Assembly (NCBI GenBank): GCA_003116975.1 | Contig: BGKB01000076.1 | Span: forward strand, 62,001-126,000 | DNA from: Aurantiochytrium sp. KH105 | Taxonomy: Eukaryota > Sar > Bigyra > Thraustochytrida > Thraustochytriidae | Reading direction: 5' to 3' | Length of the DNA stretch: 64,000 nt | Shown here: positions 34,701 to 52,196 of the stretch, in pieces | Numbering within the stretch: the first letter of the stretch is position 1 | Layout of the letters: each line of letters starts with the position of its first letter | The notes under the pieces: generated by a model | Databases searched by the model: none | Told to the model about the DNA's origin: nothing | What the model saw: only the letters and a program-made list of their open reading frames with translations | Made by a program: the position numbers and the translations under genes

Positions 34701-37700
34701 ATTGGCAAAGGGTGATCCGAATTCAGGAATCGGAATAAGCTCTTCCGAATTCATACGTACAGCCTTCATTGAACGCTTGTCCGCGGGGGGTGCAGATTCT
34801 CTCTGCTGAATGAGTTGCTGCTGAGCGTGAATGAGTTGCTGCTGTTGCTGAGCTTGTTTTGGGTCCTCTGTGGACTCGTGAGCATCTTCATCCTCGAGTA
34901 TTGAGTCGATTCCTGATCGCTTTGGAGTCATGACAACGAGAGCGGACTTTGACGTTGCTTCGTCCCAGCCCACAACGGTGGCAGTAATGTCTGCATGTGT
35001 CATGGCAACGCGTCCGCCGACGCGAAGGCTCTCGTTGTGGCCGCCGAGCACAGCAAGGGTACCTACACTGCGAAGCGCGTGTACACTGCTGCTTTCGAAT
35101 TCGACTGGTCTGTTCTCCTCGTTCTTGTGACGCTTGGGGCTAAAAAGGTGCGTGCTAATGTCCGACATGGCATCTTGCATTCGCGCACTTAGCATTGAGG
35201 ACCACTCCTCGTTTGCAGAGAGGAGTCGCACAAGCATGACGAGCTCCGAGGCAAGGGCAAAGCTATGGTGCGAGCTCGAGCCGCTCAGAGCAGACGGCTT
35301 GACCTCCACATCTCGCCGGCGCCAGCGACCCACGCTAGTATCGCATTCGAGACTTAGCTTTTTGTGTTTGTGCTTTGCATCTTTGTTCGCACCCGCAGCC
35401 GCCGCCGTCGAAGAGACCGTTGGCATTGTAGAAGAGGTATTCTTTTTCGTGACCTCATCCTTGGCCTCTGTTCGCGCGGTCTTTGACTCGTCATCGTCGC
35501 GCTCTTCGAGCGCAGGCGTCGTTGGCTCGGCCTGCTCCTTTGACTCTGTGCCCACCGTGCTTGAAGCACTTAGGGGCGGGGTTGGAGATTCCTTCGAGTG
35601 CCATACGCCCACACCAATCTGCGCCAGCAAGTAGTCGATAAAGTCTTCCCCCGTATAAGACAGTCCGTCTTTGGCACGAATCAGAGGCGCCAAGACATGT
35701 GGAGCTACCTCGCTTGGGTGCGTTGAGGGGAAAAGTACGCGCCAGAGACGCAAGACAGCCTGCTGTACACGAGGCGTTCCATAGCGGATGAGTCTTGCGT
35801 GGATTTGGAGCCAGCGGGGCATGACGAGGCTTTTGCGTCCAATCGAGCTTTCCGTAAGCGTCTGCTGCAGGACCACAAGCTGGAAACAGTGACGATCGAG
35901 AACGCGCAAGTGCTGTGGGGGGCCTTGGTCAAACATCACGTGCACGTGGATTGGCGACAGCGCTCGTGTACGGTACTTGAGCTGCGCCACGTATCCTTCG
36001 AATCCGCTGAGCATGCGATCGAGATTGGGCTTTCCGACGCAAATTGGCAATTGCGCGCTCTGCTCTGCAGACAATACGTGGGGTGAGGACGATTGTTGCT
36101 GGCCATCCAGATCACCATTGATAAAAAGCCGAAGCTTGCCCTGATCCATAACAATGGCCACATGGGTCCACGCGTTCAGGGGAATGGCGTCCTTTGAAAC
36201 GACACGCTCCGTTTCATCGTCGTCGATGCTGCTCCAAAGCTCGAGACGGCTATCGAGATCACGAATTGTCAAAATTGGAGCTTGAACGCTCGCATTTCCT
36301 CGCATGACGAGCACGCGATCGAGTCCCGAAGCTTGACGCTCTGGAAAGACCCAAAACGACAACGAGAACTCTTCACGATCTTCTTCGTCGTACAACTCGT
36401 TGCTGGCGGCGCTCTGACCGCGCTTCGAGTCAGCTGCTGCACTTGGCGGAGCGAGAACTAAGCCGCCACCCACACTGTTGACACGTGTTGGAGCTTTGAC
36501 GAGCTCATACGAGTGTTTGCTGCTGCTGGTGTTGCTGTTGGCATTGCTACCACCTGCGTTGCTGCCGCCGCTGCCGCCGTGTTTCTCCTCTGCGCCAGCA
36601 TCGGTACCACTCACCGCCTCGGTGTGACCTTGTTTTGGTAACATCATTTCAAGACTAGCTTGCATTTCGGCGTACAAAACATCGAGCAGTGAAGCAAGTC
36701 TGCCGTCGCTGTCGCTCTCGTCGCCAATCTGTGCGAGTAGCAGGCGAAAGAGCGTCCATGCGGCTCTTCCAATCTGTTTTTTGCGGCGTTTTTCCGAGTC
36801 AATCGCCGCTTTACCTCCTGTATTACCATTGCTGGAGCGACCTTGATGCTGCGAAAGTAATTGTTTGTCTTCCTCGCCCTGACGGTCCATCTCGCGGTCC
36901 ATCTGTAGCGCGTTTTGCAGCGTCTCCAAGAGACCGGTACTGCACAAGAGATCTGCATCAATTGGCCCAAGCGAAGTAGCCCAAGCGTCGAGAAGCAAAA
37001 GCCGTTCCTGTGCGCACGCTTTACCATCTTCTCGCAGCGCCGATCGAAGTGCGTGGGCCAAGTCGGTGTACAATTGCACAAAGGATGCCTGCACCGCTGA
37101 GGAGGCTGCAGGTCCCGCCGCGCTGAGCCCAGACGCGGTATTGGCGACTGCATCATTTCCTCTTGCGGATACTTTTCCATTACGCGAGCTGGTGTGTGCA
37201 GAGTCCCCGCTGCTTGCGGCGCCAGCGCCGTTGGAGTCTCCATTTTGGCCTTGCGAGCTGCCCGCCCCGGATGTCCCTACGCGGTCCTTGCCACAGATGA
37301 GCATTGACGCAAGGTCTCCGGGAAGACGTAGCGACGGTGCAAGATGCCGCAAGACATCCGTGCGCGGTGAGACGAGTTGTGGAGTGGCGAGGAGACGGCG
37401 GAAAGAATCGAGACCGCAAGTTCGTAAATAAGCGCGTCGGCAGTTGTTGATGATCATCCAAAAGAGCGCACCGAGGTCAAAGTATTGCTGCTGCATTAGC
37501 TGCTTTCGTCGCTTGGATGGCGAAGCGGGTTTCTTGGTTGGCGATGTTGGCGGCGCGCTCGGATCCGCAGCAACAGTGAGGTCTGTCGGACATTTAATGA
37601 AGCGAATGACCAGGTGCACCATGCCATTGTCCGAGGCTGTGCTTGACAGAGCCTCCTTGCACTGGATGCCCTCCCGAGTGAGACGCTTCCAGCGAATTGC

Positions 37701-40700
37701 CGTCCACACGGCGGCTCGCAACGTCTTCCAATGCGGGTTCTCAGTACGAACGGCACCGGCTCGCGCAGTCTTGGCCGCGCTCGCACTACCAAAGAGAAGC
37801 AAAAACTGTGCACGCTTCAAGTACCCTGCGCAAAAAGCATGAAAGAGATTGTTGTCGTCGCTTGCTTGCGCGTCGTCGCTCGCATTAGCCATGAATTGCG
37901 AACGAAGTCGAACGAGATGCATGCGAACATCGGCGGCCGCGCGCCAGCAATCCAGCACACGCGGGGGCGGGGGCGTCGCTGCGGCAGGAGCGTCATGATT
38001 ATGCGCATAGAGAATGGCGTCCAACAATGCGCCAGTGTGCTTGAGCACCGCGGCAAAAATGCAAGCTTCCACCTTTTCCAATGCCGAAGCGTCGGCGCCT
38101 CCGTTTCCGCGGCCCTGAATGAGAGTCACGTTGTAGGCAAAATTTGCTTTGGCATGGGCTGCGCGAATGGCGTCAACAATGGGCTCTGTGCCTCGCTGAA
38201 TGCGCTGGACGAAGCGTAATTGCTCACCAAAAGAGAACATCTTGAACCAGTCTGAGCCGAGCTTGGGCGCACTCGAGCTACCCGATTTACGGTGTACACT
38301 GGCGCTTGGCGGTCGGTTTTTCTCACGGTCTACCCAATGAACCCCGCTTGCACCATTTGCGGCCATGTGAAGCATTGGAAGAATGCTGCTTTTGGGGGAG
38401 ACGCGCGAGATGATGCGCGCATCTAAACCGCCCTTGAATAGACTAGCATCTCGCCATACCACGTACGACTCGCGGATCTCGTCAGGACCGGGGATTTGCT
38501 CCAGCTGACGAGCTTCTCCCTCAACGTGACCACCCACGAGCGTGGCAGCCAGCTTCCCACCAAGGCTTGCAAGCGCCTTTTCGAGCTGCAAAAGCCATGG
38601 CAAACTTGCCAGTGCCAAGGCCTCCTCGACACGCTTCTTTTTCGACTTGATCTTTGAGCCACCAAAGCGCTCCGATGCCAAACGGTACTCCTGATCAGCG
38701 GCGAGAAGTGGAGGCGATTTCTGCGCAGTCTGATCAACGACACGCAGCGTGTCAATGACCCGTGGCAGCAGACGCCTCGCAAAGTACGTGCGATCCGCAA
38801 AGAGCGACAATGCCATGATGAGAGAGGGGAGAACGCGCGCCACGACCGATTTCTGCGCAAGGGCGTCAAGATTCTCGGATGTGACCACTGCAGCAAGTTC
38901 GTCGTTTGATTGGCGCAGCACAAGTTCGGCGTACCGGAGGAGACAGTCCCAAGCGGTAGAATTTGATGTCTCGAGGTTCCAAGCGAAAGAACCGCCCGTA
39001 TCGTCGCTGTTCGTCTCGTGCTGATCATGTGGCTGCTGTTGCTGCTGTTGCTGTGGCACCTGCGCGTCTGCGACCGCAGATTCCGGCGAGTTTGTGTCCA
39101 GAGTGGACTCACGCGAGACTCCTGAGGATGAAGACATCAGCGACGAGCTGGAAACGGATGACCCGAGTCCAGGCACTGCCGCGGCAAACTTATCGAGAAG
39201 GTCATCAAGGTACTGACCCGTGCGCGGAAGACCTTCAACAGAGCTCTCGGTCGGATGCGATGAGTTGGCCGCCCAGCTGAGAAGGTGCTTTTGCAGTGCC
39301 AAAAGGAGCTGTAGAAAACCGTTCGTGTTGGCAGGATTGCGCAGACCTGCAGAGATGGCACGCCCCGTCTCCGCCCCAATCTGCCTCACCAGACTCGAGA
39401 GAAGACTTGACAGCAGGGCCACCGAGGAGTCGTCCTCACTGTGCTTGCTGAGCGAGCGAGCGCGTCCCGGCCGCGACGCTGAGGTTTCGGCTTCGCTCGA
39501 GAACAGAATTGCCTGATATGGAATCATTGCCGAAACGAGCTCGTCATCAGCCAGACGGCGCAAAAGAGGTTCCAACAGGTAGCGTTTGAGGCCCCTGGAA
39601 AACACTGCAGGTGAAGACGTGCGCTGGAACTTGAAGAGTGGGCTCCGGGGCGAGATGCGGGTTTCGAAGGGAAGTATATCGTGCTGCTCCTGATGTTGCT
39701 GGTGAAGCTGCTGCTGCTGCTGCTGCTGCTGCGCCAAAGCACGGCTTCGCGCGGCGAGTTGCTTGCGAAGTTCAGGAGCGCCGCCTCGGGAGAGGCTCTT
39801 CTCTTGCTCTCGCTCGAGGTCCTTTTCTTCCCTGGTCTCATTTTCGCTCTCGCTCTTGCACTCTTCCTCGCGTTCGTCAGTCTCGTCATTTTCCGCCATG
39901 AGTGAGGCCAAAAGCTGTACTTGAAGCTCTTGTGTTGGGTAAAAGAGCTCAAGTCCTGTCATGAGCACCTCGGACGCGGTAGCCTGAGCCATTTCCGTGT
40001 CGTGCCGAGTCTTGAGACGCGGAGGGTTCTCGATCGTGTCAAGAGCGAACCGATGCACTTCATCGAGCGCGCGAACAAGGGACGATGGCTCAGACTCGAG
40101 GTTTTGCATTTCGTGCTGCAATCTCGGGCCCGCCCCACTCCACAGAAGCTGCGCAAGGTTGTTTCGCGTCAGTCGCAGCAGCGCAAGTGCCATATATGTC
40201 CAGCGCTCGCATCCAGGCTCGGAATGCAAGGCGTCAGCCTTCGAAGTGCAGAGGCGGGCGAGGTAGACGAGCAGAACGAGAGTTCGTGGATCGCTGTCAA
40301 TGCAAAAGGGAAGGTCCCCCGGCGGCAACAAAGTCTGCGTTCCCGCTGCATTGGATGCAGAGCGGGTGTTCGCCACAGCACTCGCATGGCCGCCAAGAGA
40401 GAGCGTACTTGGCACGGCCAGATTTCTGCGATCCGTGGCGCGCGAAGCCGAATTTTCATCAAGCTCGGCTTGAGGGTCAAGCGCTGGGTATGCTCGCTGA
40501 CCGCGCCATCGCTGCACGCTTTCCTGTCGCCGCGCATGATATGATCCCATGCGATCGAGGTTGTACAAGGTGTGAAATGCGAGCTCGAGAGGGGAAAGAA
40601 GTTTGCGCCGCACAGCCAGCGCCTCGCGTTCTTGCATGACAAAGTCGCGGAGTTCGTGTTGCTCGGGTGTAAAAAGGAAGCTTTCGTCCTGGTCAAGATG

Positions 40701-43700
40701 CTCCTTTTCGTCTGCATCTTGACCGCCCACGAGAACAATGGTATGATAAAAGCCTGCAGCCACATCGGCAATGCGAGATCCAGCAAAGGACTTGAGAGGC
40801 AAAGGCGAAGGTCGCTCAGGAGAGTCCCCACAGCCCAATTGGCCATGATTGTTGCGACCAAAGACGTACATGACATTGTTGTGGTCCACGGCCACAGAGT
40901 GATAACATCCAGCGGCGATGCGAACCACGCGAGTGGTGCTGCCGTCGAGGTCCTCGACTTCACGAGGACCAAAGACCTTTTGCGCCGTGGACCCAATGCC
41001 GAGCTGTCCATAGTCGTTTCGCCCAAATGCCCAGAGTTTTCCCGTCGTGCTGAGCGCAATAGTATGGTAGTAGCCACAGCGAAGCTCTCTGATACAGTCG
41101 TCGCTTTCACGGTCCATGGCTTTGCTGCCAAAGGCGCGCACAATGGTCATGCGACGATGTGGTTCTGGAAGTTTCAGACCGAGCTGACCGTAATCATTCT
41201 TTCCGCTGGCGTAGACGGACCCTGAGGCCAGGGCTACGATGGTGTGGTACTGCCCGCACGCGACTGAAACAACGTGTTCGCCTGTGGAGAGCGCGTCAAT
41301 GCGCGCGGGCTCTTTGCGATCGAGCGTATCTCCATGGCCCAGTTGACCAAAGTCGTTGCGTCCAAAGGAAAAGACTTCCCCACTGTCTGTAGCCACGACG
41401 CTATGGTAATAGCTGCAGGACACATAACGTACCCTGCGGCCCGGGATGCCAAATCCGGGCACGAGCTGAGGAATTGATATCGAAGTTGTGTTTCCGTGCC
41501 CGAGCTGGCCTCGATAGTTGTAGCCAAACGAGTAAAGAGCTCCTTCCTGAGTTACACAAAGCGTGTGTTCACAGCCATTGTAGGCATGTACCTGAGCGAC
41601 GTTCTTGTTATTCAGGAACTCGATGTTGGAGAGATGGGCTACACGGCCCGTGTTGCCTTGACCGCATTGGCCATTGTCATTGTAGCCGACTGCATATACT
41701 TTTCCGCTCCTTGTGAGAACAATGGTGTGCTCATTGCCCGCGGCCACTTGAACGACGTCTTTGCCGTTCAAAACGCCTGCTTCCTTGGGTGCCTTTCGGG
41801 TAATTGTATCACCATGAGCGAGCTCACCGTACGAATTTTGGCCAAAGCTCCAAACTTCGACCTCTTCGGCCTTGGCGCCGAGCATGTGGGCCTTGAAAAG
41901 TTCTCGGGTGTCAACCTCGGACAGTTGCATGAGCTTTGACCAGAGGTCGAGGGCGCGCAGTGACCCTGGCTGCACCTTTTGCGAACTTGATCGGCGCGCC
42001 TGTTCACGGATACGTCTTTCGCGTGGAGATCTTTGCTCCTCGACCTCATTGTTGTTGTTATTGTTGTTGTTGTTGTTGTTATTGCGGTGGTCGTTATAAA
42101 CGTTGTTGCTGGCGGTGTTGCTGCTACTACTGCTGTGATTGCTGGTCGCAGATTTCAGATGGTCGTGCTCAAAATTGTTATTACACGGCAGTGCGCCTCC
42201 TGTCTTCTCGCCCGTTCCAGGGCGTGCCGCGATGCGTGGCTTGGTCCCGCCCACAGCAGCCCCAGTCAATTCACGCTGCTCTTGTTCTGATAGTGGCACG
42301 ATCGTTTGCGAGCCTTCCATAGAAGTAATGTCGGTTGACGAGGCACTGGTCCCTGAAGGACCTATTCCCGACGTGACAGCGGCGCTGGCGCCAACGCCAG
42401 ATACAGAGGCTGCTCTTGCTGGAGCAAAGCTTGACGCATCGGCAAGGATCCCTTCAACCGGAAGACTCGCCGTGAGCGGGGAAACGCCGCTCTTGACTTC
42501 TGCTTCCTGGGCATCAACACCCAGCATGAGGTCCTCCACGGTGCGCCAGCCGCGCTTCTGCATGCGCTCGGCGGGCAAGTGGTCCGGAGATCGCTCGCCG
42601 CGGTCAGGACTTGCCGCCAGAGCACCCGTTGCTGTGGGTGTGGGGAACACCGCCAAGCCCTCCGTTGGAGACGTGGACGGAGTCATGGCATCCTTTTTCC
42701 CCAGCTTACGTGCGGTCTCAACGGAAAGACTTGCCGCAGAAGGCAGCGATGATGATGATGATGCAGCGTCTGCCACAGCGTCCTCGAGGAGCACCTTGAG
42801 ACAAAGAAGGAAATCGACGAGCTTCGCGCGTCCGAGGGCCAGTGTGAAAAGAGACTCTATAGCCTGAGCTCGCTCTTCGGCAGAGAGCGCAAGCTCTTGA
42901 TAGCGCTGTGCGTCGACATCATGAAGGTCGTGACCGTAGCGAGAGTCCTCGTCGGTTCCGATTTTCCGGTCCCCACGAGCCAGTTCCTTGGATCGTGATT
43001 TACTCGCACTCGAAGGTCTCGCAGATCCGAGAGTTCCGGTGCGCGCTCCGCTGAGAAGAAGCTCCTCTTCTAATAAGTTTCGCGAACCGAGGCCAACGAG
43101 TTTACGCGAGGTACCCGCGCGATAGAGGAATTCGCTGATTTCATTGAGGACGCCAACGGGGGGAAGCTCGTTCATCTTTTCGGCAGGGCCCTCGGATCCT
43201 GGACCGGTTCCGTTATATCCAAGTCCTTGGTCTGCAAGTCCGCCTGCATGTTGCACATCGTCTCGTGAAGGTTCGCGAATCGCGGGGATTTCATGGCCGA
43301 GTAGCTCGGGGCCGAGGTTTTGGGCAATGGGAAGTATCTCCCGAACGAGATGAACGTACTGGTCTACGGTGCACGCCTCGTCTTGCTGAATGCAATCCAA
43401 AAGGGTAAAAAAGAGACTAAGGCCAAGGCGTACGGGATGAGAAAGGCCAAAGGAGGTAGCTTCTGCTGCCAGATCAGGCGCCCCCAAAGATTCTTGATTC
43501 TGCCGATCGCGCGGAGCGTTGTCAATGGAATCATGCGCAAGGCGACGTCGCCGGCGCCGGCGACGTCGGCGTCGCATTTCGGCCTCGGAGAGTTCTTCGT
43601 GGCTAGTGTTGAGGCCGTCTCCAGGCAGCATCAGGTGATTATCGTCTGAACTCGTGTCCTCGTGGTCGTCGTGCTCGTGCATGTTGAGCAGAACCTTTCG

Positions 43701-44213
43701 GAGCAACGCGGTCTTTCGGTCTGTTCCGGAAAGAGCGTCTGACTGACGATGCTTGCCCTTTAGCGCCGCTCGACGCGGCCAAGCGCGCATCATGGCTGCA
43801 TGCATGCAACGCAGAAAATGGATGCGCTGGTCAACGGTAGTAGTGAAGGGATCTTCTTCGCGGCAATTCTCCGTGAGTCCTTTGGTAAGCCGCTGCACCG
43901 TAATGCTGCGCGCAGCAGCGTCGTATGGGTACGCTAGGCACGCGACTGCATCGGCAATAGCCTCTGCCTCCTCCACGGAGGCGCTCGTAGGCGAGCTTGG
44001 CGAGTTTAGCGCGGCATCGCGATCGTCGATCAGGCTTGCGGCGTTGACCGAAGAGACAAAGTTCTTGCGTACAAGGTCTTTGTCGAACATTTCGTCCATG
44101 CATGCGCGGAGATAGTGCGCATCCATGTCCGCGGAGGGGAGGGCGTCGAAAGGATCAGCGCCTGTTCCGCCAAGCGGCGTGGCGCTACGCGACCCGGACT
44201 CTGCATTGCCCAT
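28752..44213 (-). CDS. Giant HERC1-like HECT E3 ubiquitin ligase (5153 residues)
   Basis: A single uninterrupted ORF of 15.5 kb. Domains by approximate residue: a polar N-terminal region with asparagine and glutamine runs (about 710-725 and later); a complete RCC1 propeller (780-1165, repeats such as VFSFGRNDFGQLGHGDT); a LamG/concanavalin-like domain (2611-2763); an acidic tract (3423-3453); a UBA domain (3494-3534, MGFPEEWCVVAL); a B-box-type zinc finger (4039-4089); FN3 (4110-4191); SPRY (4198-4358); and a C-terminal HECT domain (4700-5124) with catalytic Cys5088 in KAHTCFFALSLPKYST. The last 150 residues read very like HERC1. HECT ligases form a ubiquitin thioester before transfer; the other domains would select substrates. 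MGNAESGS at the start fits N-myristoylation. Acid and serine linkers explain much of the length. Confidence 0.95.
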   Translation of the reverse strand: MGNAESGSRSATPLGGTGADPFDALPSADMDAHYLRACMDEMFDKDLVRKNFVSSVNAASLIDDRDAALNSPSSPTSASVEEAEAIADAVACLAYPYDAAARSITVQRLTKGLTENCREEDPFTTTVDQRIHFLRCMHAAMMRAWPRRAALKGKHRQSDALSGTDRKTALLRKVLLNMHEHDDHEDTSSDDNHLMLPGDGLNTSHEELSEAEMRRRRRRRRRRRLAHDSIDNAPRDRQNQESLGAPDLAAEATSFGLSHPVRLGLSLFFTLLDCIQQDEACTVDQYVHLVREILPIAQNLGPELLGHEIPAIREPSRDDVQHAGGLADQGLGYNGTGPGSEGPAEKMNELPPVGVLNEISEFLYRAGTSRKLVGLGSRNLLEEELLLSGARTGTLGSARPSSASKSRSKELARGDRKIGTDEDSRYGHDLHDVDAQRYQELALSAEERAQAIESLFTLALGRAKLVDFLLCLKVLLEDAVADAASSSSSLPSAASLSVETARKLGKKDAMTPSTSPTEGLAVFPTPTATGALAASPDRGERSPDHLPAERMQKRGWRTVEDLMLGVDAQEAEVKSGVSPLTASLPVEGILADASSFAPARAASVSGVGASAAVTSGIGPSGTSASSTDITSMEGSQTIVPLSEQEQRELTGAAVGGTKPRIAARPGTGEKTGGALPCNNNFEHDHLKSATSNHSSSSSNTASNNVYNDHRNNNNNNNNNNNNEVEEQRSPRERRIREQARRSSSQKVQPGSLRALDLWSKLMQLSEVDTRELFKAHMLGAKAEEVEVWSFGQNSYGELAHGDTITRKAPKEAGVLNGKDVVQVAAGNEHTIVLTRSGKVYAVGYNDNGQCGQGNTGRVAHLSNIEFLNNKNVAQVHAYNGCEHTLCVTQEGALYSFGYNYRGQLGHGNTTSISIPQLVPGFGIPGRRVRYVSCSYYHSVVATDSGEVFSFGRNDFGQLGHGDTLDRKEPARIDALSTGEHVVSVACGQYHTIVALASGSVYASGKNDYGQLGLKLPEPHRRMTIVRAFGSKAMDRESDDCIRELRCGYYHTIALSTTGKLWAFGRNDYGQLGIGSTAQKVFGPREVEDLDGSTTRVVRIAAGCYHSVAVDHNNVMYVFGRNNHGQLGCGDSPERPSPLPLKSFAGSRIADVAAGFYHTIVLVGGQDADEKEHLDQDESFLFTPEQHELRDFVMQEREALAVRRKLLSPLELAFHTLYNLDRMGSYHARRQESVQRWRGQRAYPALDPQAELDENSASRATDRRNLAVPSTLSLGGHASAVANTRSASNAAGTQTLLPPGDLPFCIDSDPRTLVLLVYLARLCTSKADALHSEPGCERWTYMALALLRLTRNNLAQLLWSGAGPRLQHEMQNLESEPSSLVRALDEVHRFALDTIENPPRLKTRHDTEMAQATASEVLMTGLELFYPTQELQVQLLASLMAENDETDEREEECKSESENETREEKDLEREQEKSLSRGGAPELRKQLAARSRALAQQQQQQQQLHQQHQEQHDILPFETRISPRSPLFKFQRTSSPAVFSRGLKRYLLEPLLRRLADDELVSAMIPYQAILFSSEAETSASRPGRARSLSKHSEDDSSVALLSSLLSSLVRQIGAETGRAISAGLRNPANTNGFLQLLLALQKHLLSWAANSSHPTESSVEGLPRTGQYLDDLLDKFAAAVPGLGSSVSSSSLMSSSSGVSRESTLDTNSPESAVADAQVPQQQQQQQPHDQHETNSDDTGGSFAWNLETSNSTAWDCLLRYAELVLRQSNDELAAVVTSENLDALAQKSVVARVLPSLIMALSLFADRTYFARRLLPRVIDTLRVVDQTAQKSPPLLAADQEYRLASERFGGSKIKSKKKRVEEALALASLPWLLQLEKALASLGGKLAATLVGGHVEGEARQLEQIPGPDEIRESYVVWRDASLFKGGLDARIISRVSPKSSILPMLHMAANGASGVHWVDREKNRPPSASVHRKSGSSSAPKLGSDWFKMFSFGEQLRFVQRIQRGTEPIVDAIRAAHAKANFAYNVTLIQGRGNGGADASALEKVEACIFAAVLKHTGALLDAILYAHNHDAPAAATPPPPRVLDCWRAAADVRMHLVRLRSQFMANASDDAQASDDNNLFHAFCAGYLKRAQFLLLFGSASAAKTARAGAVRTENPHWKTLRAAVWTAIRWKRLTREGIQCKEALSSTASDNGMVHLVIRFIKCPTDLTVAADPSAPPTSPTKKPASPSKRRKQLMQQQYFDLGALFWMIINNCRRAYLRTCGLDSFRRLLATPQLVSPRTDVLRHLAPSLRLPGDLASMLICGKDRVGTSGAGSSQGQNGDSNGAGAASSGDSAHTSSRNGKVSARGNDAVANTASGLSAAGPAASSAVQASFVQLYTDLAHALRSALREDGKACAQERLLLLDAWATSLGPIDADLLCSTGLLETLQNALQMDREMDRQGEEDKQLLSQHQGRSSNGNTGGKAAIDSEKRRKKQIGRAAWTLFRLLLAQIGDESDSDGRLASLLDVLYAEMQASLEMMLPKQGHTEAVSGTDAGAEEKHGGSGGSNAGGSNANSNTSSSKHSYELVKAPTRVNSVGGGLVLAPPSAAADSKRGQSAASNELYDEEDREEFSLSFWVFPERQASGLDRVLVMRGNASVQAPILTIRDLDSRLELWSSIDDDETERVVSKDAIPLNAWTHVAIVMDQGKLRLFINGDLDGQQQSSSPHVLSAEQSAQLPICVGKPNLDRMLSGFEGYVAQLKYRTRALSPIHVHVMFDQGPPQHLRVLDRHCFQLVVLQQTLTESSIGRKSLVMPRWLQIHARLIRYGTPRVQQAVLRLWRVLFPSTHPSEVAPHVLAPLIRAKDGLSYTGEDFIDYLLAQIGVGVWHSKESPTPPLSASSTVGTESKEQAEPTTPALEERDDDESKTARTEAKDEVTKKNTSSTMPTVSSTAAAAGANKDAKHKHKKLSLECDTSVGRWRRRDVEVKPSALSGSSSHHSFALASELVMLVRLLSANEEWSSMLSARMQDAMSDISTHLFSPKRHKNEENRPVEFESSSVHALRSVGTLAVLGGHNESLRVGGRVAMTHADITATVVGWDEATSKSALVVMTPKRSGIDSILEDEDAHESTEDPKQAQQQQQLIHAQQQLIQQRESAPPADKRSMKAVRMNSEELIPIPEFGSPFANLSPRRRVKVDGSSQDVNKDDPSRESKQQRPNQRQHSPETTLEDSFYRLLRHLFVVPLDATTTRSKTVLLAQCRARTLRVLHELLQTLDCNFEELFERTADHGENIAVSLLKLAVRNLKEKRFVTMEGMEIRAEELRKRLHTLRHAQHASEPSTSMATSVPSSEHEERPASSTPKLGGIFGTRVEAESATYQGHGDNVDDEVAVLMYSDDEDDEADDGEMEDGLHESQGLHALRASLRGPAPDLDGDDMGLTSSSEEDDDDDDDDEEEDDADDEENDEEDGNGAAGHRRANANANENANDGSPGGFHGEGAAGEPPSSSNDPPSYLVDELVAMGFPEEWCVVALRIQGYDLIAASTWIVDNLDMLSSTPLSELIPPSLMESKTYDEDDVQAVHSTEQGGHLATNSRLSLDEMPIVEPIEEKVVQAAQAMAPKADEERRRRRRRLQRAKASLRRIDEPFQQLEVAFGDDVFEDDHFRTDACASYGYGYKCGALGLYNGVHAEGTKQDAAREAFRSEIALLNFGDLEKLCAELEEELSILYARSCLILLLQRWREWPAADVQFDKVFLSEEINFAKFLRLVLFRGPQLMPALLDHLLETNLPGLVPITPPRAGSAAELEMLHPRLGGSAEDLFPADVGSMDPHAAKDSHHQQQEDRKGRKALNSAAAAAGSILRLMMDALKPSLVQLLRKDHNGKLGNTLTDFVLRDLETAARSEEHVEQLWGMRELSCSDFQLARAPCVEFDTWVLGILQNEGVEATLSENAFKSYAKLLGAPNLPLKSLALKSLVKVLRKTPELCRELPYQRLFAVSQRRSNLEAQGQRVFYSKFLSAAVEVLGLMRQVLPGTRLSLANVETFELGERAYRGDLAEHACAGPESLADTPCASCLETSCAAKCADCDAILCEPCAQRHEVSHELILSPCCREVAGESKPSQENDQPEASGVRSFVVTSMDCECIEVAWHVDPGFDSEIVLQANEKVFCVTEMNGCSFRFTGLRAGSTYQVALYVLAKSGERYKVASHKARTKDRLAFEFDPYNCGPNICITDKGLCARFAATESWSTVLATRGYSSGVHSWQVRIDESDSPYLFVGVASRKACLQTFLGGDEHGWGYIGDRALYHKRNRLSIYGDRFGQGDVLSVTLDMDAGTLAFARNGKDLGVALDGLTGVLYPAFAFYSGSQVISLVKKSLYRRDVTTDPAVPTTVFTDDILTAVGTVDRFLSGDYAVDAVLEGAAWESHQDWAAQKWTRVWTRLGKDLRLKRPERLQKVQTHLGTGTVVGLGPEDDAQLWVTYDEAQSAGAWPISLDDDRLTVLSEEEIQSPMENVAMSKEAFSSSLHAFEAATAIQVDRDLVAELGAYCERKGCSPFEIGPDTFATDVLAGLQLRSRARVSLEQAAARFALLKALNERFEVILPWFAAQMQADPRAVILIEGDLAGHTSAASAAPEGPNWALASLPQKLSCFRGLIFWHVKKQLLERLLERSATVPKRAEDDYEYPEELPQLMLNRPKAAFSRTLPDSESRLSFSLFGQAFDELHFLEPRILRIAYSHPMDEGQARTFKVKFEGEGVDDYGGPYREVFSQWSGELTATTLSPDGAAEEGHPDQDLGEGGGSGNGADSGTGGGDDDAEDKKDNQQMQCVLPILHPCPNRQHGVGANREKYVLRPDPSQGADPSAMARGKKDSGAHLLLEMINFSGQLFGIAMRTRALLNVDLANLVWKPLVGESVVLEDLRDVDHSTVALVEQLRTADPAYLEAMCEELRWNTSLSDGSRVELVPGGHHLRVNPADCEDYIRALLHARLREAQQSTAALRDGLASVVPRAALSLLTPEELERKICGAPELDVDLLQSCTEYDDDLCESDPHIQSFWRVLRKFPNKQRQMFLRFVWARSRLPATKHDFPQHLKIQAPVAEGPRENPDMWLPKAHTCFFALSLPKYSTDEIMEEKLRYAITNTTEMDADFNINQSENQHWQAPDSADAAGRASPVLRIQTSE

Positions 44214-44950
44214 TGGCTTTTAGCGTTGCGTTGATCGTACTACTCGTTTGTAGACGCGAGCGTGAATTGCCGGCTACTTTGTCTGTCTCTGTTTGGCCTC
44301 GTCGTTGGGTTGGTGGCTGGGTGAGTGCGCGTGCACGGTGTCCGCTCACGATGCGAAGTGATTTTTCTTGGTCGGTTTCGGGATCTTGTTGCGCCCCGGG
44401 CGTTGGCAGCCTTTCCGCGACGCTCCTGCGTCGTCGTCGGCCGCGCGCCCGGAGCCTCTGGTAGCGCACCGCCAGAGCTCTCGGCGCAGGCGTAGCTTGT
44501 GATGCAAGTCTGTGCCGACAATTGATCTCGCGCAAAAAACGCTCCGAGCCGTTAGACCACTTTATTGTTCTGCGAGACACTCGGTCTAGGCCTATTCGGA
44601 AATTCGATGCCATGTGACATGACCGTATAGCCTTGTTGATCCCACCCAATCCAGGCTTTGGAGCGGAAAAAGAAGGAGAAGAAGAAGTAAAGGAAGCAAC
44701 GCTGCTCAGCTCGGCTCAGTTTCCTTTTTCTTTTTTTCTTTTTTTCTTTTTTTTGAGGGGGGGGGAGGATTCCAACGACAGCACGCCCTCGATACGAGCA
44801 TTTATTTATCGAGAATTGAAGAGCCAGACGGTCAGTGAACCATGCTGTATGCGGCAAATGGTTGCATGGAAAGAGAGAGTCAGGCAGAGATAAAACATTT
44901 CATCAATAATATCTAAAAACAACACGTGTCTCGTGGTCTCCACGCTAACG
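44214..44950. other. Spacer between the HECT ligase start and the TIR gene 3' end
   Basis: Leader and promoter of the HECT gene (GC-rich, 44214-44520), then AT-rich sequence with a T-rich/G-run tract (about 44725-44767). One palindromic TAGGCCTA lies at 44587-44594. No gene. Confidence 0.6.
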
Positions 44951-47900
44951 TCAACTTGCGTCGATGCGTGCAATGAGCTCCTTGTAAAAGCCCTCGGCCA
45001 GATAAAGGCGACGCTGAAAAGGCATGGACTCCCGCTTGTCGAAGAGAAACTTGGCAGCGTCCGGTGCAGAAGAAATATACGTCGAAAACGATGCGAAAGC
45101 CGGAAGATCTGGATTGCTCTCGTGCACAAGCAAGATGGGTTTCTCCGCCTCTAAAGCCGTCTCGAGCTCCATGCAAACGGCGTCGGACTCGAAGACGGAC
45201 TTGGTGAGGAACAAAAGGTAGCACTTTGAAGCTCTGATGCCGTCGCGCATCTCCGTCGTGGACAAATTGCCCTTGGTGCGCTGGTCAATCCAGACATTGA
45301 GGCCACGGTTAAGGAGCTTTTCTGCAATGAGGTTGCAGGCATCACCAGCCTCGGACTGCTTGTGGCTGATGAAGACGTGCCAACGCGTGCCTGGAGGCAG
45401 CGCGAGCATTGGAACGGACTCGACCGGACCCGTGTCGTGCTTATCGTCGTCAAGCAAACCATCGTTGAAGAACGCTGCAAAGTCCGACACGCGGGCGTTG
45501 CCCATGCCGACTGCCTTGACCACGGCGAGTTTGGCATCGAGAGCGGCCATGTATTTGTCGTAGGAAACCAAAATGGACGCGTCTACGGGGGACTGGAGGT
45601 GTAGCTTCCACGGAAGACGTTGGAAGACGGCATCGCGAGTCCCCTGAAACATACTGATCAAAACCTTGAGCGTACTGGCCGGTCGGTAGGTGCCAGGCAC
45701 AGCCCGCAGCCAAATCTGGTTGCCACGCACCTCAAGAGCAAACTCAGAGAGCCCAAAGCAGATAAGGGCATGGCGACCACTGAGTCGCGGCGGGTTGCTC
45801 TGCGCCCCGCACGTACTGCTGTACTTGGCGCACAAGGACAGGAGGCGAGCAAAGACGCCGTTGGGAAGGAAAAGGTCGGAGAAGTCGAGCACGCACGTCA
45901 GACCTGGGGCCATGTTCTCGACATCTGCGATGAGCTCGGCGTCGTGCGCGTCCCCAAGAAGACTGCTCACAAGGTACAGTGCTTCGCCGTCTCGAGCTTT
46001 CGCGCGGATGAAATCCTCGGGAAAGGCCCAATCTGACGCAAGCATGGTGTCGCCCATAAATCCTGCAAGATAGTCGACTTCCTCGTTGTCCCATAGAAAC
46101 TCGAGCAGGCTACGCGAGGCGATGCCGCGGTGCCTCAAGTGCCAAAAATCTTCCTCGAGGTCAAGCTCAGCAAGCCTTTCGTCATAGTAAATGTTCTCCA
46201 CATGGATTTCGTCGGCGATCACGCGAGAAAGCTTGTCTAGAAGCCACTGCGGCTTCATGACGACCTTGTTGTGCAGAGTGTCCGTGGAACGCAAGTGTAC
46301 AAGCATACCTAGCTCGTGAAAGAACTTGAGCAGCTCGTCTGTCTGATCCCCTGCGTGGTACTTGGTCGCAAACTCCTGCACTTTGGCAAAGGGAACGTGG
46401 TCACAATCGAGCTTCATGAGGTCGTCGAGCACCTTGAGCCAGCGCAGCGAGATCTTTTGCGAGACTGATGGAAGGCTCGACGCTGTTTTCTCGACAACGG
46501 AACGTAGATCTGTAGCGCGGTCGGCAGCAGATGCCATGTTGTTGATTGGGAAGAAACTAAGTCTTTCGGCCCGATTCTTGACCAACTTGACGCCGCGCTG
46601 GGCCTGAAAGTCGTCGCGGAGAATCTTTTCTACAGCGCGAGCATTGTTGGCGGATTTGTCGTAGTGGGAGCCAACCAGAATGACAGGAGCATCGGGGGCG
46701 TGAAGTTGGATCGAATTGAGCCAGAAGCGGAGATAGGCCGAGGCTTGAACGCGCTTGTCCATGAGCTCTTGCATGTTGAACACGAGCATGAAGACGCCGC
46801 CCTCGCGCGTGAGGAAAATGTGGTGCAGCGCGTAAAAGACGTCCTGACCCGCATAGTCCCAGATCGTAAACTTGATCTTCTGGCCCGACTGTGTCTGGCC
46901 GGCCATGTTCTCGATCTCCGCAATGTCGAATCGTCGCGCCACCTCGGCCTCGGGCACCAGCTCCACTTGCTCCTCTGCGACGAAGGGCCGCGCCGCAGAG
47001 GAGCGTCGACGTACGACGTCTACAATGCCGCGAGACATGCGCTTTGGCAGCGATTGCCGCTTCTTGCTCGCCGCTTGCTCCTCCGCGGCCATGCGCAGCG
47101 CCGCCACGCGGTACGCCTGGCGTTCGAACCCGCTGTCGAAGTCCTTGCTCTTTTTCCAGGACTCTGCATCGGTGCGCGTGAGCTCGACGCCCTCCGTCGA
47201 GATGTGCTCCGCCACGGGCGCCAAGCCCAGCAGCGAGCGCACCGTGGACGTCTTGCCGGCGGCGCCCTGGCCGACGACCATGAGCTTGCAGCGGCCCAGC
47301 TCCGCGGGGTCCCCGTTCGCCAGCGCCGCCTTGAGCGCCTCCTCCGCCGCCGCAGTCGTCGCGGGGCCGCCGAGCACGTCCTCGATGGGCCGCACGGCCT
47401 CCGTGCCGTCCAGCCCGCGCGTCGAGGCGCCCGTCTCCGCGTCCCAGATGCGCACGCTCTCGTCCGAAGATCCGCTCACGATCTCCGACCCCAAGAGAGA
47501 GACCGAGCGCACATAGTCCGAGTGTCCTTGCAAGACGTGCAGCGCGTCTCCGCTGCGCGCGTCCCAGAGTCTGACCGTGCTGTCCCGGGACCCGCTCACG
47601 ATGCGGTCTCCCTTGAGCGCGACAGAGCGCACCCAGTTGGTGTGTCCTTCGAGGACGCGGACGAGCTGGAAGGAAGGCACGGCGTAGACCCTCACCTTCT
47701 TGTCGCGGGACCCGCTCACCATGCGCTGCGCGTCGATCGCGACCGCGTAGACCTTGTCTGTCGCCTCCGTGAGGACGTGGCGTGGGCCGCCGCTGGCTCG
47801 GTCGAAGACGCGCACGGTGTTGTCTTCCAACCCGGCCACGAGCAGGTTCTCGTGGGCGGCCACGCTGTAGACCCACGCCCCGGCGTCGATCCTCAAGGTC

Positions 47901-48259
47901 TCTCGGCCGCTGATCTTGTCCCAGACGCGGACGGTCTGGTCGTAGGACCCGGAGATGATCTCGTCGCCGTCGAAGACGACGCTCGGAACAGCGGCGGTGT
48001 GGCCCTCCAGGGCGTGCAGGACGGAGGCGGTGGCCAGGTCGATAAGAAAGAGGCCGGCGGCGGATCCCGTCCCGACGGCGATGACCTTGCCCTGCACGGC
48101 CATCGTCCAGGCCCCGGCGCTGTTGGGCGTCTTCATCTCGAAGACGAGGGCGCCGTCCTCCTTGCTCCACGCGTACACGGACCTGCCGCCGCCGCTGCCA
48201 GCGAGCACGAGGTCGGCGGTCTGCGCGACGCATGCCACTTCGCCTCCGATGCGGCCCAT
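44951..48259 (-). CDS. WD40-Roc-COR-TIR protein (Roco-type GTPase with TIR effector)
   Basis: The protein is 1102 residues in one exon. Residues 1-280 form a WD40 propeller of about seven repeats (for example RIVSGSRDSTVRLWD, EIVSGSSDESVRIWD). A Roc GTPase domain follows, with P-loop GQGAAGKTS (Lys336), DYAGQ (about 468-472) and the SHYDKS base-recognition motif. About 100 extra basic residues separate P-loop and DxxGQ. A COR-type region spans about 560-870 (VVMKPQWLLDKLSRVI). The C-terminus (about 958-1050) is a TIR domain: WHVFISHKQSEAGD, LNVWIDQ, SKCYLLFLTKSVFES and MELETAL. Glu1031 aligns with the NAD-hydrolysing glutamate of SARM1. Roco GTPases act as nucleotide-switched dimers and TIR domains signal or cleave NAD on clustering, so an immune-like or cell-death switch is plausible. 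That role is inference. Confidence 0.93.
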   Translation of the reverse strand: MGRIGGEVACVAQTADLVLAGSGGGRSVYAWSKEDGALVFEMKTPNSAGAWTMAVQGKVIAVGTGSAAGLFLIDLATASVLHALEGHTAAVPSVVFDGDEIISGSYDQTVRVWDKISGRETLRIDAGAWVYSVAAHENLLVAGLEDNTVRVFDRASGGPRHVLTEATDKVYAVAIDAQRMVSGSRDKKVRVYAVPSFQLVRVLEGHTNWVRSVALKGDRIVSGSRDSTVRLWDARSGDALHVLQGHSDYVRSVSLLGSEIVSGSSDESVRIWDAETGASTRGLDGTEAVRPIEDVLGGPATTAAAEEALKAALANGDPAELGRCKLMVVGQGAAGKTSTVRSLLGLAPVAEHISTEGVELTRTDAESWKKSKDFDSGFERQAYRVAALRMAAEEQAASKKRQSLPKRMSRGIVDVVRRRSSAARPFVAEEQVELVPEAEVARRFDIAEIENMAGQTQSGQKIKFTIWDYAGQDVFYALHHIFLTREGGVFMLVFNMQELMDKRVQASAYLRFWLNSIQLHAPDAPVILVGSHYDKSANNARAVEKILRDDFQAQRGVKLVKNRAERLSFFPINNMASAADRATDLRSVVEKTASSLPSVSQKISLRWLKVLDDLMKLDCDHVPFAKVQEFATKYHAGDQTDELLKFFHELGMLVHLRSTDTLHNKVVMKPQWLLDKLSRVIADEIHVENIYYDERLAELDLEEDFWHLRHRGIASRSLLEFLWDNEEVDYLAGFMGDTMLASDWAFPEDFIRAKARDGEALYLVSSLLGDAHDAELIADVENMAPGLTCVLDFSDLFLPNGVFARLLSLCAKYSSTCGAQSNPPRLSGRHALICFGLSEFALEVRGNQIWLRAVPGTYRPASTLKVLISMFQGTRDAVFQRLPWKLHLQSPVDASILVSYDKYMAALDAKLAVVKAVGMGNARVSDFAAFFNDGLLDDDKHDTGPVESVPMLALPPGTRWHVFISHKQSEAGDACNLIAEKLLNRGLNVWIDQRTKGNLSTTEMRDGIRASKCYLLFLTKSVFESDAVCMELETALEAEKPILLVHESNPDLPAFASFSTYISSAPDAAKFLFDKRESMPFQRRLYLAEGFYKELIARIDAS

Positions 48260-49289: not shown

Positions 49290-50782
49290 CTAAAGTTGGG
49301 AGCGTTCGATCTCGTGAACTTCAGACTCCGGCTCGGCCGGGTCCTCCTTGCTTGAAGGGGGAGACGTTTCAGTGCCGTTGTAAGACGAGTTGATGTCCTC
49401 GGACTCGTACACCCGGTTCTGAGAGAGGGCGGAAGACGAAGAGTCGGGGCGAGCATACCCCAATTCGCTGTCATCGTCGTCATCATCACCGGTGCCGCCA
49501 ATACTTGCTTGGCTGAGCTTGCCGGGTAGATTCGGCGCGCGAGACTGACTTGGCTGACGAGGTCGGTCGTTGGCGCGTTTTCTCATCTCCTTTTGTACGG
49601 TCGAAGCTTCGACAACAAAGAACACGTATAGAATTTTGAGACGTAGTGGTGCATTTTTGAGACGCGTTCGCGCGTTGACGGTGCGTGGAAAAATAAAGCC
49701 TGCCAGGTTAAAAAGGCCTTGCAAAGGCACAAAGAAGACCGCGAGATAGGTCGTGTATTCGCCAGGACTCCCCGTGACAAAGTCTTGGACCCGCAGGATG
49801 GTGACAAAGATGTACGTAAGGACAAAGGCCCCGACGTAGAGAGCAGCCTGAATGATGATACGTTTGGTGGTCTCGAACTTTTTCCGCTCCGACTCGACCA
49901 TTTTGCGCACAGCACGATCTTGACGGTACACCACCGAAACGACCAGAGACATCATGACGAATGTGAAGATGATGCAAAACCAGAGAGGCACGTAGAAGAA
50001 ATAGAGCTGGTAGTTGAAGGCGTTGTTGCCTTGTGCGCACTCTACGGCGGAGGATCCCGTGCAATCTGCTGGCAAGTCCGCAATCCAGCACCAGATGATG
50101 GCGTTATGGTACAGGTTCAATGGAATCGGGGCCACGGTGCAAATAAAGGTGAAAATGAAGACAAAGGCGAACCCGTACGGCTCGAGGCCCTCAATGTAGT
50201 CTGCGGGCCATTCAAGCTTGAGAATGAGAAAGTAGTTGAGTGAGAGAGCTGCGTTCAAGAGGATCGCCCCGAGGCCGACCTGTTCAAAGGCGCCCTGCAT
50301 GATGCAGAGGCTCTGCCATCCTTCCCCGTCGGGTGGCGGAATTGCATAGTCGGAGATCATGTACCCGGTGGACGCGATAAGGTCCGACAGCGTCATGAAG
50401 AAAATAATGCGAAAGTAGCTGTAGGTGGGATCCGTCTTTTCGTGTCAGTTGTCCGCAGGGTCGCGCAACACATCAACTCTTGAAGATTGACAATTTTTTT
50501 TGGAGAGGGATGGTGGGGGGAGGAAAGGCACCCCTCCTATTTTCCTCCGCTATTTCCTCCTTCGATCACGACCGATTTCACTTACGTCGACCAGTGCCGC
50601 GGTCCCTTCCGCATGCACCCATAGATGATAATAAAGTCTCCCAGCAGGGAGAAGACGGCCGAGACCCTCGTCAGCGTCCTGTGTTTCGCAACTCCGTCAG
50701 TTTCTTCGCCCCGCGCCTCGCTGTATGTCGCCCTGCTCGCCGTCCTCCAACAATAACCCTCCCCCTCTGTGTCTCTCCCCAC
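49290..50782 (-). CDS. cAMP-receptor-like GPCR, two exons
   Basis: Exon 1 runs 50782-50586 and exon 2 50418-49290. The 167-base intron has donor GTAAGT and acceptor CCTACAG. The join reads RHWSTYFRIIFFMTLSDL, which restores helix 1 (SAVFSLLGDFIIIYG) ahead of helix 2, as in the paralogue at 52.7-54.6 kb. The 441-residue product has seven helices, an N-x-x-LS-N-Y-type helix 3 (LNAALSLNYFLILKLEW), an NLYHNAIIWCWI extracellular segment and a VFFVPLQGLFNLAGFIFPR helix 7. This layout is typical of Dictyostelium cAMP receptors and related protist GPCRs. The tail is serine-rich and acidic. The ligand cannot be read from sequence. The start is the only upstream ATG in exon 1, so an earlier exon is possible. 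Confidence 0.87.
50419..50585 (-). other. Intron of the cAMP-receptor-like GPCR gene
   Basis: A GT-AG intron of 167 bases, defined by GTAAGT at 50585 and an acceptor AG at 50419. It interrupts a codon after helix 1. No ORF continues through it without loss of the conserved helices. Confidence 0.82.
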
Positions 50783-51236
50783 TCTCTCTCTCTCTCTCTC
50801 TACACTACACGCGAGTCAGCGCGGAGAGGCAGACGCGCGGAGCGGAGCGGCGCACGGCGCACGGCCGGCGCACGGCCGGCGCCGTCCGCTGGCGGAGCGC
50901 TGCGCTGCGCCACGCTGGCTTCCGTTCTCCTTTCGCTTGCCCTCGTCTCCGCTCGCGCCGCCTGCGCGCTCGCTCGCGCGGCGTCGCAAGCCTCCATTCG
51001 TTCAATTCATCCATCCATCGATCCCTCCATCCATTCATCCATCGATCCATCCATCTCCATCCCCCGCCCGCCCGCCCGCTCGCTCGCTCGCCCGCTCGCT
51101 CCACGTGCGCGCTTCTCCTCGCCGCCTCCCCTCCGCGGCCACGTACCGCACGGTGGGCAGGTGCAGGTCCGCCATGGCGCGCCGCGCCGCGCCGGCAGCG
51201 CGCCGCCGGCCTCGCTGCTCGCCTCGGCCGACGAAC

Positions 51237-51272
51237 AGACTCTGTCTGTCTGTCTGTCTGTCTGTCTGTTTC

Positions 51273-51325
<53 letters not shown>

Positions 51326-51390
51326 TTCTCTGTTTCTCTGTTTGTCTGTCTGCCTGTCTGTCTGTTTCTCTCTGTCTCTGTCTGTCTATG
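51237..51390. repeat. (CTGT)n array, about 150 bases
   Basis: Nearly perfect CTGT tetramers, interrupted by a few TTTCTCTG variants. This is the longest microsatellite of the window. Confidence 0.95.
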
Positions 51391-51446
51391 TCTGCCTTGC
51401 CTGTCTATTGTCTGCGCCTTCTCCGTGCGCGCGCCCCCTCCGCGCC

Positions 51447-51570
51447 TCCTTCCTTCCTTCCTTCCTTCCTTCCTCCTTCCCTTCTTTCTTTCTTTCTTTC
51501 TTTTCCTCCTTTCTTTTCCTTCTTTCCGCTTCTTTCTTTCTTTTCCTCCTTCCTTTTCCTCCTTTCCGCC
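51447..51570. repeat. (TTCC/TTTC)n pyrimidine tract
   Basis: A polypyrimidine tract of TTCC tetramers that passes into TTTC tetramers. Confidence 0.9.
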
Positions 51571-52196
51571 GTGCCTTCGGACAAACCCGCCGCGGGACGC
51601 GCGCAAACCAGACCGACCGGCCACCGCGGCACGGCTGCCGCGGCGGGAGAACCAGCTGCAGCCGCGGCCAGTTTCCCCGCCGCTCTCGCTCTCGCTCTCG
51701 CTCTCGTTCCCGCCGCCGCGGCCCGCGGCCGGCCGCCACTTCTGCGGGCGGGAACACCGCGCGTGCGCGGAGGCCGCGCGGCGCGTGCCGCGGGAGGCGC
51801 TCGCAGAGGAGCGGAGCGGCGAGGGCGCTCGCCGTGCGCCGCGGCGATGCGGGGCGAGACGCCCTCGTCGCGCGGCGGGCGCGGCCGGAAGCGGGCGCTC
51901 GTGTGCGCGCATGGCTGCATGGAGATGAGGCGGGCACGGCGCTCTCGCGAGGGCGAGGTCGAGGACGTCGAGGGCGGCGCGGGCGAGCGAGCGAGGGGCA
52001 GCCAGCAGCCAGGTGCAGCTGGACACTGCGACCAGCGCGGGTGTCGCAAATGGGAGAAGACGCGCACACCAGCAACAGCGAGTTGTACTACGTCGTGGTG
52101 GTGGTGGAGGAAGAAGTAATTCGCGCAAGGATTGTTGGACACGCACACGCTCGCGCGCGCGCCTCGTGACGACCTCCCTGGCCGAAGTCGAGCTGT

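Follow-up and report, generated by a model that had tools for sequence, protein, structure and literature searches.

A candidate recognition-receptor family with a hypervariable WD40 propeller, a Roc-COR switch and a TIR domain in Aurantiochytrium sp. KH105

Within a 64,000-nucleotide stretch of the Aurantiochytrium sp. KH105 genome (contig BGKB01000076.1, positions 62,001 to 126,000; hereafter the window), a single open reading frame (ORF) on the minus strand (44951..48259) encodes an 1102-residue protein in which an N-terminal WD40 propeller is followed by a Roc-COR GTPase module and a C-terminal TIR domain. The gene belongs to an expanded family. Comparison of its members, whose residues vary from copy to copy at fixed positions on one face of the propeller, lends good support to the view that this WD40-Roc-COR-TIR family acts as a diversified recognition repertoire. 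An earlier reading of the window made from the sequence alone (the sequence-only reading) had proposed one receptor gene; the gene is real, and the finding is a repertoire of many copies. Its proposed role, that of a candidate intracellular receptor for immunity or cell death in this stramenopile, gains support from the size of the family and from apparent diversifying selection on the top face of the propeller.

The fuller reading, which we consider probable but some way from assured, is that these proteins form an expanded family of putative cytosolic recognition receptors with a variable propeller face, a Roc-COR switch and clustering TIR domains that trigger an NAD+-based defense or death response. 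The proposed ligand-binding surface is the top face of the propeller. Binding there would shift Roc-COR to another nucleotide or dimer state through a presumed GTP cycle. This change would bring TIR domains into clusters, which in turn may hydrolyze NAD+ or derive a signal from it, leading to cell defense or death. NAD+ cleavage and cell death as the outcome of the pathway are a conjecture, reasoned from the TIR fold together with an invariant glutamate.

Variation and selection on the propeller face

We aligned 20 WD40-type paralogs, comprising the window gene, the 9 of 30 retrieved COR-A loci that hold most of the WD40 region and 10 further long ORFs drawn from a set of 35. Two loci with short ORFs (L034 and L038), the broken locus L071 and the later additions L084, L085 and L086 stand outside this set; L027, which has a shifted WD40 frame ahead of blade 4, is included. 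The blade framework is largely constant across the 20 paralogs, with a consensus of roughly GH(T/S)xxVxSV...GSxDxxVR. In the blades of the fungal proteins HET-D and HET-E, strong positive selection has been reported at codons 7 and 9 around the conserved codon 8 and at codons 25 and 27 around the conserved codon 26, located in the d-a loop and the b-c turn at the top of the propeller (PMC1805685; this and the other papers are cited for the parts of their text drawn on here). We mapped these positions onto blades 3-7 as the neighbors of the conserved V and D, giving 20 sites (residues 90, 92, 106, 108, 129, 131, 145, 147, 169, 171, 185, 187, 209, 211, 225, 227, 249, 251, 265 and 267) whose codons span 47459..47992 on the minus strand. 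Blades 1 and 2 were kept outside the test set because their register is unsure. On the predicted model of the propeller, the 20 sites fall in the b-c turn and either just ahead of strand a or at its beginning.

Entropy exceeds 2 bits at 18 of the 20 tested sites as opposed to 3 of the 188 other WD40 sites (residues 83-290), and each of those three directly adjoins a tested site; the same threshold is passed at 49 of 780 sites in residues 320-1102. When 20 WD40 sites were drawn at random 100000 times, no draw came up to the mean entropy of the tested set. All 90 complete blade signatures are distinct, mean identity between paralogs being 14.9% in the signature and 87.2% in the framework. As expected of a binding face, W, Y, N, K and R are enriched at the tested sites (W, 7.4% versus 1.4% in whole proteins; Y, 10.4% versus 1.9%).

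Nei-Gojobori counts over the 190 pairs of paralogs gave a dN/dS of 3.43 and a pN/pS of 2.13 (bootstrap 1.65-3.01) at the tested sites; elsewhere dN/dS was 0.77 for the remainder of residues 83-290, 0.32 for Roc, 0.20 for COR and 0.17 for TIR. Among the 14 pairs with dS <0.35, dN/dS at the tested sites was 5.58, and removal of the frame-shifted L027 left values of 3.44 at the sites, 0.75 in the rest of the propeller segment, 0.33 in Roc, 0.20 in COR and 0.16 in TIR. The four closest paralog pairs changed residue at 57 of 68 site codons versus 64 of 712 other WD40 codons, with TIR changes of 0/147, 0/148, 4/147 and 4/147. In these comparisons, Roc, COR and TIR show purifying selection and the propeller face an excess of replacements; diversifying selection of the HET-E type is apparent at blade codons 7/9 and 25/27.

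The window protein and its family in the genome

The window ORF runs from an ATG to a TGA uninterrupted by stops. No ATG, GTG or TTG lies in frame between the upstream stop and its start, and the column of the start methionine holds M in all 10 paralogs whose sequence reaches that point. A possible polyadenylation signal, AATAAA, is found about 145 bases past the stop (44801..44806, minus strand, as are all features of the gene given below). The sequence-only reading had assigned an N-terminal WD40 propeller, a Roc domain with intact P-loop and DxxGQ motifs, a COR-like region and a C-terminal TIR domain, and all four assignments hold: Pfam families score over their curated cut-offs for WD40 (1.8e-30), Roc (4.8e-18), COR-A (2.7e-11) and TIR_2 (7.3e-13). 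The predicted model contains 28 strands in residues 8-283 (47411..48238), equal to seven blades of four strands each, which make up the proposed sensor. The Roc GTPase domain (residues about 320-600; 46460..47302) carries the P-loop GQGAAGKT (residues 330-337, including Lys336; 47249..47272) and the G3 motif DYAGQ (residues 468-472; 46844..46858), and K336, T337, D468, G471, Q472 and a G4-like HxD (H532 and D534) are kept in 20 of 20 paralogs. Roc is followed in tandem by the COR domain (residues about 604-932; 45464..46450), as in Roco proteins, and then by the TIR domain, the proposed effector (residues 959-1100; 44960..45385). The first fold list was confined to the propeller, and the Roc-COR model was rebuilt from a wider alignment because the first was too poor there; the resulting model of residues 320-1102 matches the Roc-COR of CtRoco over 431 residues and has the TIR fold, matching the TIR of SARM1 over 130 residues. 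At an E value of 0.001 these residues match Roc, Ras, COR-A and TIR_2 only, with no match to NB-ARC or NACHT. The domain make-up of the window protein is thus secure by the tests at hand. Glu1031 (45167..45169), which had been placed at the NADase position of SARM1, aligns weakly (E 0.25) with a glutamate of TIR-1/SARM1 chain 8p2l that we take to be the catalytic one. It is invariant in the 20 paralogs; L024, a Roc-COR-TIR relative without WD40, has Q at this position.

We scanned the genome assembly (76.0 Mb in 367 contigs) for further copies, and our counts include both haplotypes. The assembly is probably diploid: the first Rpb2 domain is matched 6 times, in three pairs, which fits a diploid genome with three polymerases. 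The PfaD family of polyunsaturated fatty acid synthase has four strong matches as two equal-scoring pairs, and synthases of this kind are characteristic of thraustochytrids. COR-A matches 124 times genome-wide, 116 of them over cut-off, and TIR_2 at least 150 times (150 of 258 candidates were scored). A scored TIR lies 0.3-2.6 kb downstream on the same strand for at least 91 of the 124 COR-A matches, a lower bound in that all members of a mixed set of 16 have a TIR, though seven of them had been counted as lacking one. A pattern for the motif FLIDLATASV, used as a tag for WD40, matches 61 places and its reversed control none. COR-A lies downstream of the tag at 51 of the 61 places, and COR-A plus TIR at 50; the tag is in frame with COR-A at 44 of the 51. 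In 41 of these a TIR follows and the open frame reaches at least 1000 aa, which speaks against the TIR being a separate gene. A count that relied solely on ORF length (43 of at least 1000 aa) proved too generous, since L071 on contig C14 and L027 on contig C115 are out of frame. The tag also misses at least one member, L026, which has a Pfam WD40 match and no tag match. A tree of 35 Roc-COR-TIR rows unites the five of the WD40 type in a single clade (100/100).

Ten tags have no COR-A match downstream (G000: C26:115944, C235:2735, C259:56497, C259:58326, C17:277607, C58:287781, C117:209668, C54:232376, C157:55224 and C67:116423) and may be fragments or propellers on other partners. Roc-COR-TIR without WD40 in the ORF from the first ATG was found in 12 of the 16 proteins of the mixed set. 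Such genes (L009, L010, L017, L020, L021, L028 and others) include some grouped in threes, as matching clusters on contigs C69 and C138, and could be partners of the WD40 type. STAND switches are few genome-wide (NB-ARC, 2 matches; NACHT, 17 matches); 15 of the 17 NACHT matches (C59:196119, C88:195603 and others) are in open frames >1000 aa, forming a small STAND set beside a large Roco set. No COR-A match lies upstream of 59 of the 150 scored TIR matches, few of the 59 having been scanned for domains, and a second TIR family carries ankyrin repeats before the TIR (L001, L043 and L061). The idea that the remaining TIR genes form another hypervariable set was rejected, as differences in four haplotype-like pairs (L043/L046, L061/L065 and L001/L003, of the ankyrin type by the members scanned, and L039/L041, TIR only) had no fixed register by eye.

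Next to the candidate receptor gene, the minus strand of the window holds a gene at 49293-50396 with a weak match, just over cut-off, to the slime-mold cAMP receptor family (PF05462, 1.6e-4). The same strand has an uninterrupted 5153-aa ORF at 28752-44213 whose translation resembles a giant HERC-type ubiquitin ligase, with RCC1-like and HECT-like stretches by eye. A low-complexity stretch at about 50700-51700 translates to SVCL- and PSIH-type repeats.

Divergence of the sensor and alternative explanations

Synonymous differences at same-residue codons, taken in 30-residue blocks, amount to 5-10% over residues 31-360, except for 16% at 61-90, and to 19% in the first 30 residues; past this region they are 16-25% at residues 361-510 and 31-55% beyond. 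Third-position GC content is 0.86-0.94 through residue 360, then 0.71 for residues 361-420 and 0.60-0.79 further on. Such low synonymous divergence in the sensor half is suggestive of exchange or gene conversion, although strong codon bias may lie behind part of it. We speculate, with somewhat more doubt than belief, that this unicellular eukaryote has an NLR-like, germline-diversified repertoire built on a Roco GTPase and not on a STAND ATPase, in which residues 1 to ~360 are a cassette exchanged among copies that would give recent duplicates new specificities and leave Roc-COR-TIR constant.

L071, taken to be the window gene's haplotype partner from how far it lies from a different matching pair, is 94.6% identical to that gene in DNA over 3.9 kb. 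The two differ at 15 of 20 site codons, all by replacements, and at 4 of 5 adjoining codons; replacements elsewhere number 18 in 261 other WD40 codons, 13 in 310 Roc codons, 7 in 320 COR codons and 2 in 148 TIR codons. L071 has a frame shift within WD40 and may be dead or misassembled. A search for the donor of its face among the 20 genes, several of which cover only 16 or 17 sites, found none sharing more than 5 of the 20 residues. Variation is mainly between copies, and this one case looks like a face replaced at a locus.

Several observations weigh against the receptor reading. The alignment covers 20 of roughly 50-60 copies and the tested sites are confined to blades 3-7, and the HET-E positions were looked up once the alignment had been inspected. 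At 7 of the 51 places, including L071 and L027, the WD40 tag and COR-A lie in different frames, and most of the TIR is missing from L086; some WD40-type copies are broken or misassembled. In two other haplotype pairs (L084/L085 and L078/L086), site differences number 0/19 and 0/20, though changes are present elsewhere. With two of three haplotype pairs identical at the sites, the face is not fast-changing between alleles everywhere.

The same machine might instead serve allorecognition, its ligands being the products of conspecific individuals, as in fungal heterokaryon incompatibility, and not those of pathogens. The variable positions match those of HET-D and HET-E, which are allorecognition genes (PMC1805685). 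The difference between the window gene and L071 at 15 of 20 sites would also be in keeping with this role, but the identity of the two other haplotype pairs at the sites would not. Allorecognition loci are usually polymorphic, and we know of no cell fusion in this organism, both of which we count against this explanation; on balance we regard it as unlikely. WD40 and Roco proteins serve in many processes outside immunity, and the NADase activity of the TIR is a prediction, so that a diversified signaling family in which WD40 faces pick different cellular partners and the TIR is merely a scaffold has also to be weighed. A dN/dS above 1 on the face and 90 distinct signatures out of 90 would, however, be unusual for housekeeping adaptors, and Glu1031 is kept in all 20 paralogs, making such a family quite improbable in our estimation.

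Relaxed constraint, that is, neutral drift of exposed residues, would fit the position of the sites at loops or strand edges. We give it very little credence, as pN/pS is above 1 over its whole bootstrap range and dN/dS at the sites is 5.58 in the 14 close pairs; moreover, gene conversion, if it homogenizes the framework, should homogenize neutral sites inside the framework too. Targeted hypermutation of the variable codons, for which protein-level selection is unneeded, would explain why the recent paralogs L033 and L035 differ at 12 of 16 tested codons versus 3 of 156 in the rest of WD40, but is hardly credible given that L084/L085 and L078/L086 are unchanged at 39 such codons and changed elsewhere, which weakens the case for a mutational hotspot, and that codon use (TGG, AAG and GAG are common) is unlike adenine-directed mutagenesis of a single template codon. 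We likewise reject, from codon use at the variable sites, adenine-directed mutagenesis of the diversity-generating-retroelement type. We retain the recognition-receptor reading, which makes testable the recognition of invaders or kin by a protist, as well as the action of Roc-COR when coupled to a TIR, a matter relevant to LRRK2-type switches.

Comparison with known systems

The coupling of a Roco switch to a TIR effector had been put forward in the sequence-only reading as an unusual layout. The layout is real, but the joining of Roco and TIR as such is already known, from bacteria and from Chondrus; it is the hypervariable WD40 version for which we found no report. Among the papers listed by our searches of the open-license literature, none dealt with a WD40-Roc-COR-TIR family or with thraustochytrid Roco or TIR receptors; these included no search aimed at hypervariable WD40 proteins outside fungi. 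A transcriptome study counts 290 and 306 WD40 proteins in two thraustochytrid species (PMC8917795).

Bacterial LRR-AP-GTPase-COR proteins, which are predicted conflict systems, have TIR among at least 24 C-terminal effectors (PMC8195603). Like the window protein, the bacterial LRR-Roc-COR-TIR systems combine a sensor, Roc-COR and a C-terminal TIR in one protein, and a counter-invader role is predicted and several copies per genome are reported for them (PMC8195603); their sensor is a leucine-rich repeat (LRR) region, whereas the N terminus of the window protein is a WD40 propeller. Two Verrucomicrobia ORFs (L082:3945-6953 and L083:3555-6794) hold LRR, Roc, COR-A, COR-B and TIR_2 in one protein, with a Roc-COR-TIR about 20% identical to that of the window protein. 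A search for a close prokaryotic relative, consisting of one genome scan with two peptide patterns, gave 2 loci only, 21-22% identical in the matched part.

Among eukaryotes, TPR-ROCO-TIR in Chondrus (PMC11378527) and a handful of ROCO-TIR proteins in Aplysia (PMC9334734) resemble the window protein in having Roc-COR and TIR, but have other sensors, and the parts of these papers drawn on here make no mention of a hypervariable face. TIR also appears among the domains in a figure of Trichoplax ROC-COR proteins (PMC4104024). SARM1/TIR-1 shares the TIR fold and the aligned glutamate with the window protein. Its regulation proceeds via ARM-SAM, unlike the arrangement found here. The LRR-ROCO candidate immune receptors of brown algae are likewise an expanded ROCO family in a stramenopile with a proposed immune role, but have an LRR sensor and diversity from exon shuffling, and TIR is not mentioned in the cited part of the source (PMC11378527). 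That paper reports at most 4 ROCOs in each of several unicellular SAR species, including Schizochytrium aggregatum, and a large ROCO family in a protist runs counter to its suggestion linking ROCO diversity with multicellularity (PMC11378527).

The fungal HNWD proteins (HET-E and HET-D) also form a gene family with diversifying selection on WD40 at residue pairs in the d-a loop and the b-c turn (PMC1805685). They differ in having a NACHT (STAND) switch, a C-terminal WD40 region, a HET effector and highly alike repeats of varying number, whereas the window family has a Roc-COR switch, an N-terminal seven-blade propeller with distinct blades, a TIR effector and more copies. Off-register blade identity in the window family is 30-41%, and its seven blades have a position-specific framework, with no highly alike, number-variable repeats of the HNWD type. 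If the recognition-receptor reading is correct, the NLR plan of a hypervariable repeat sensor, a nucleotide switch and a TIR executioner would have been reached by a stramenopile protist with a different switch, and this protist and fungi would vary the same positions of the propeller.

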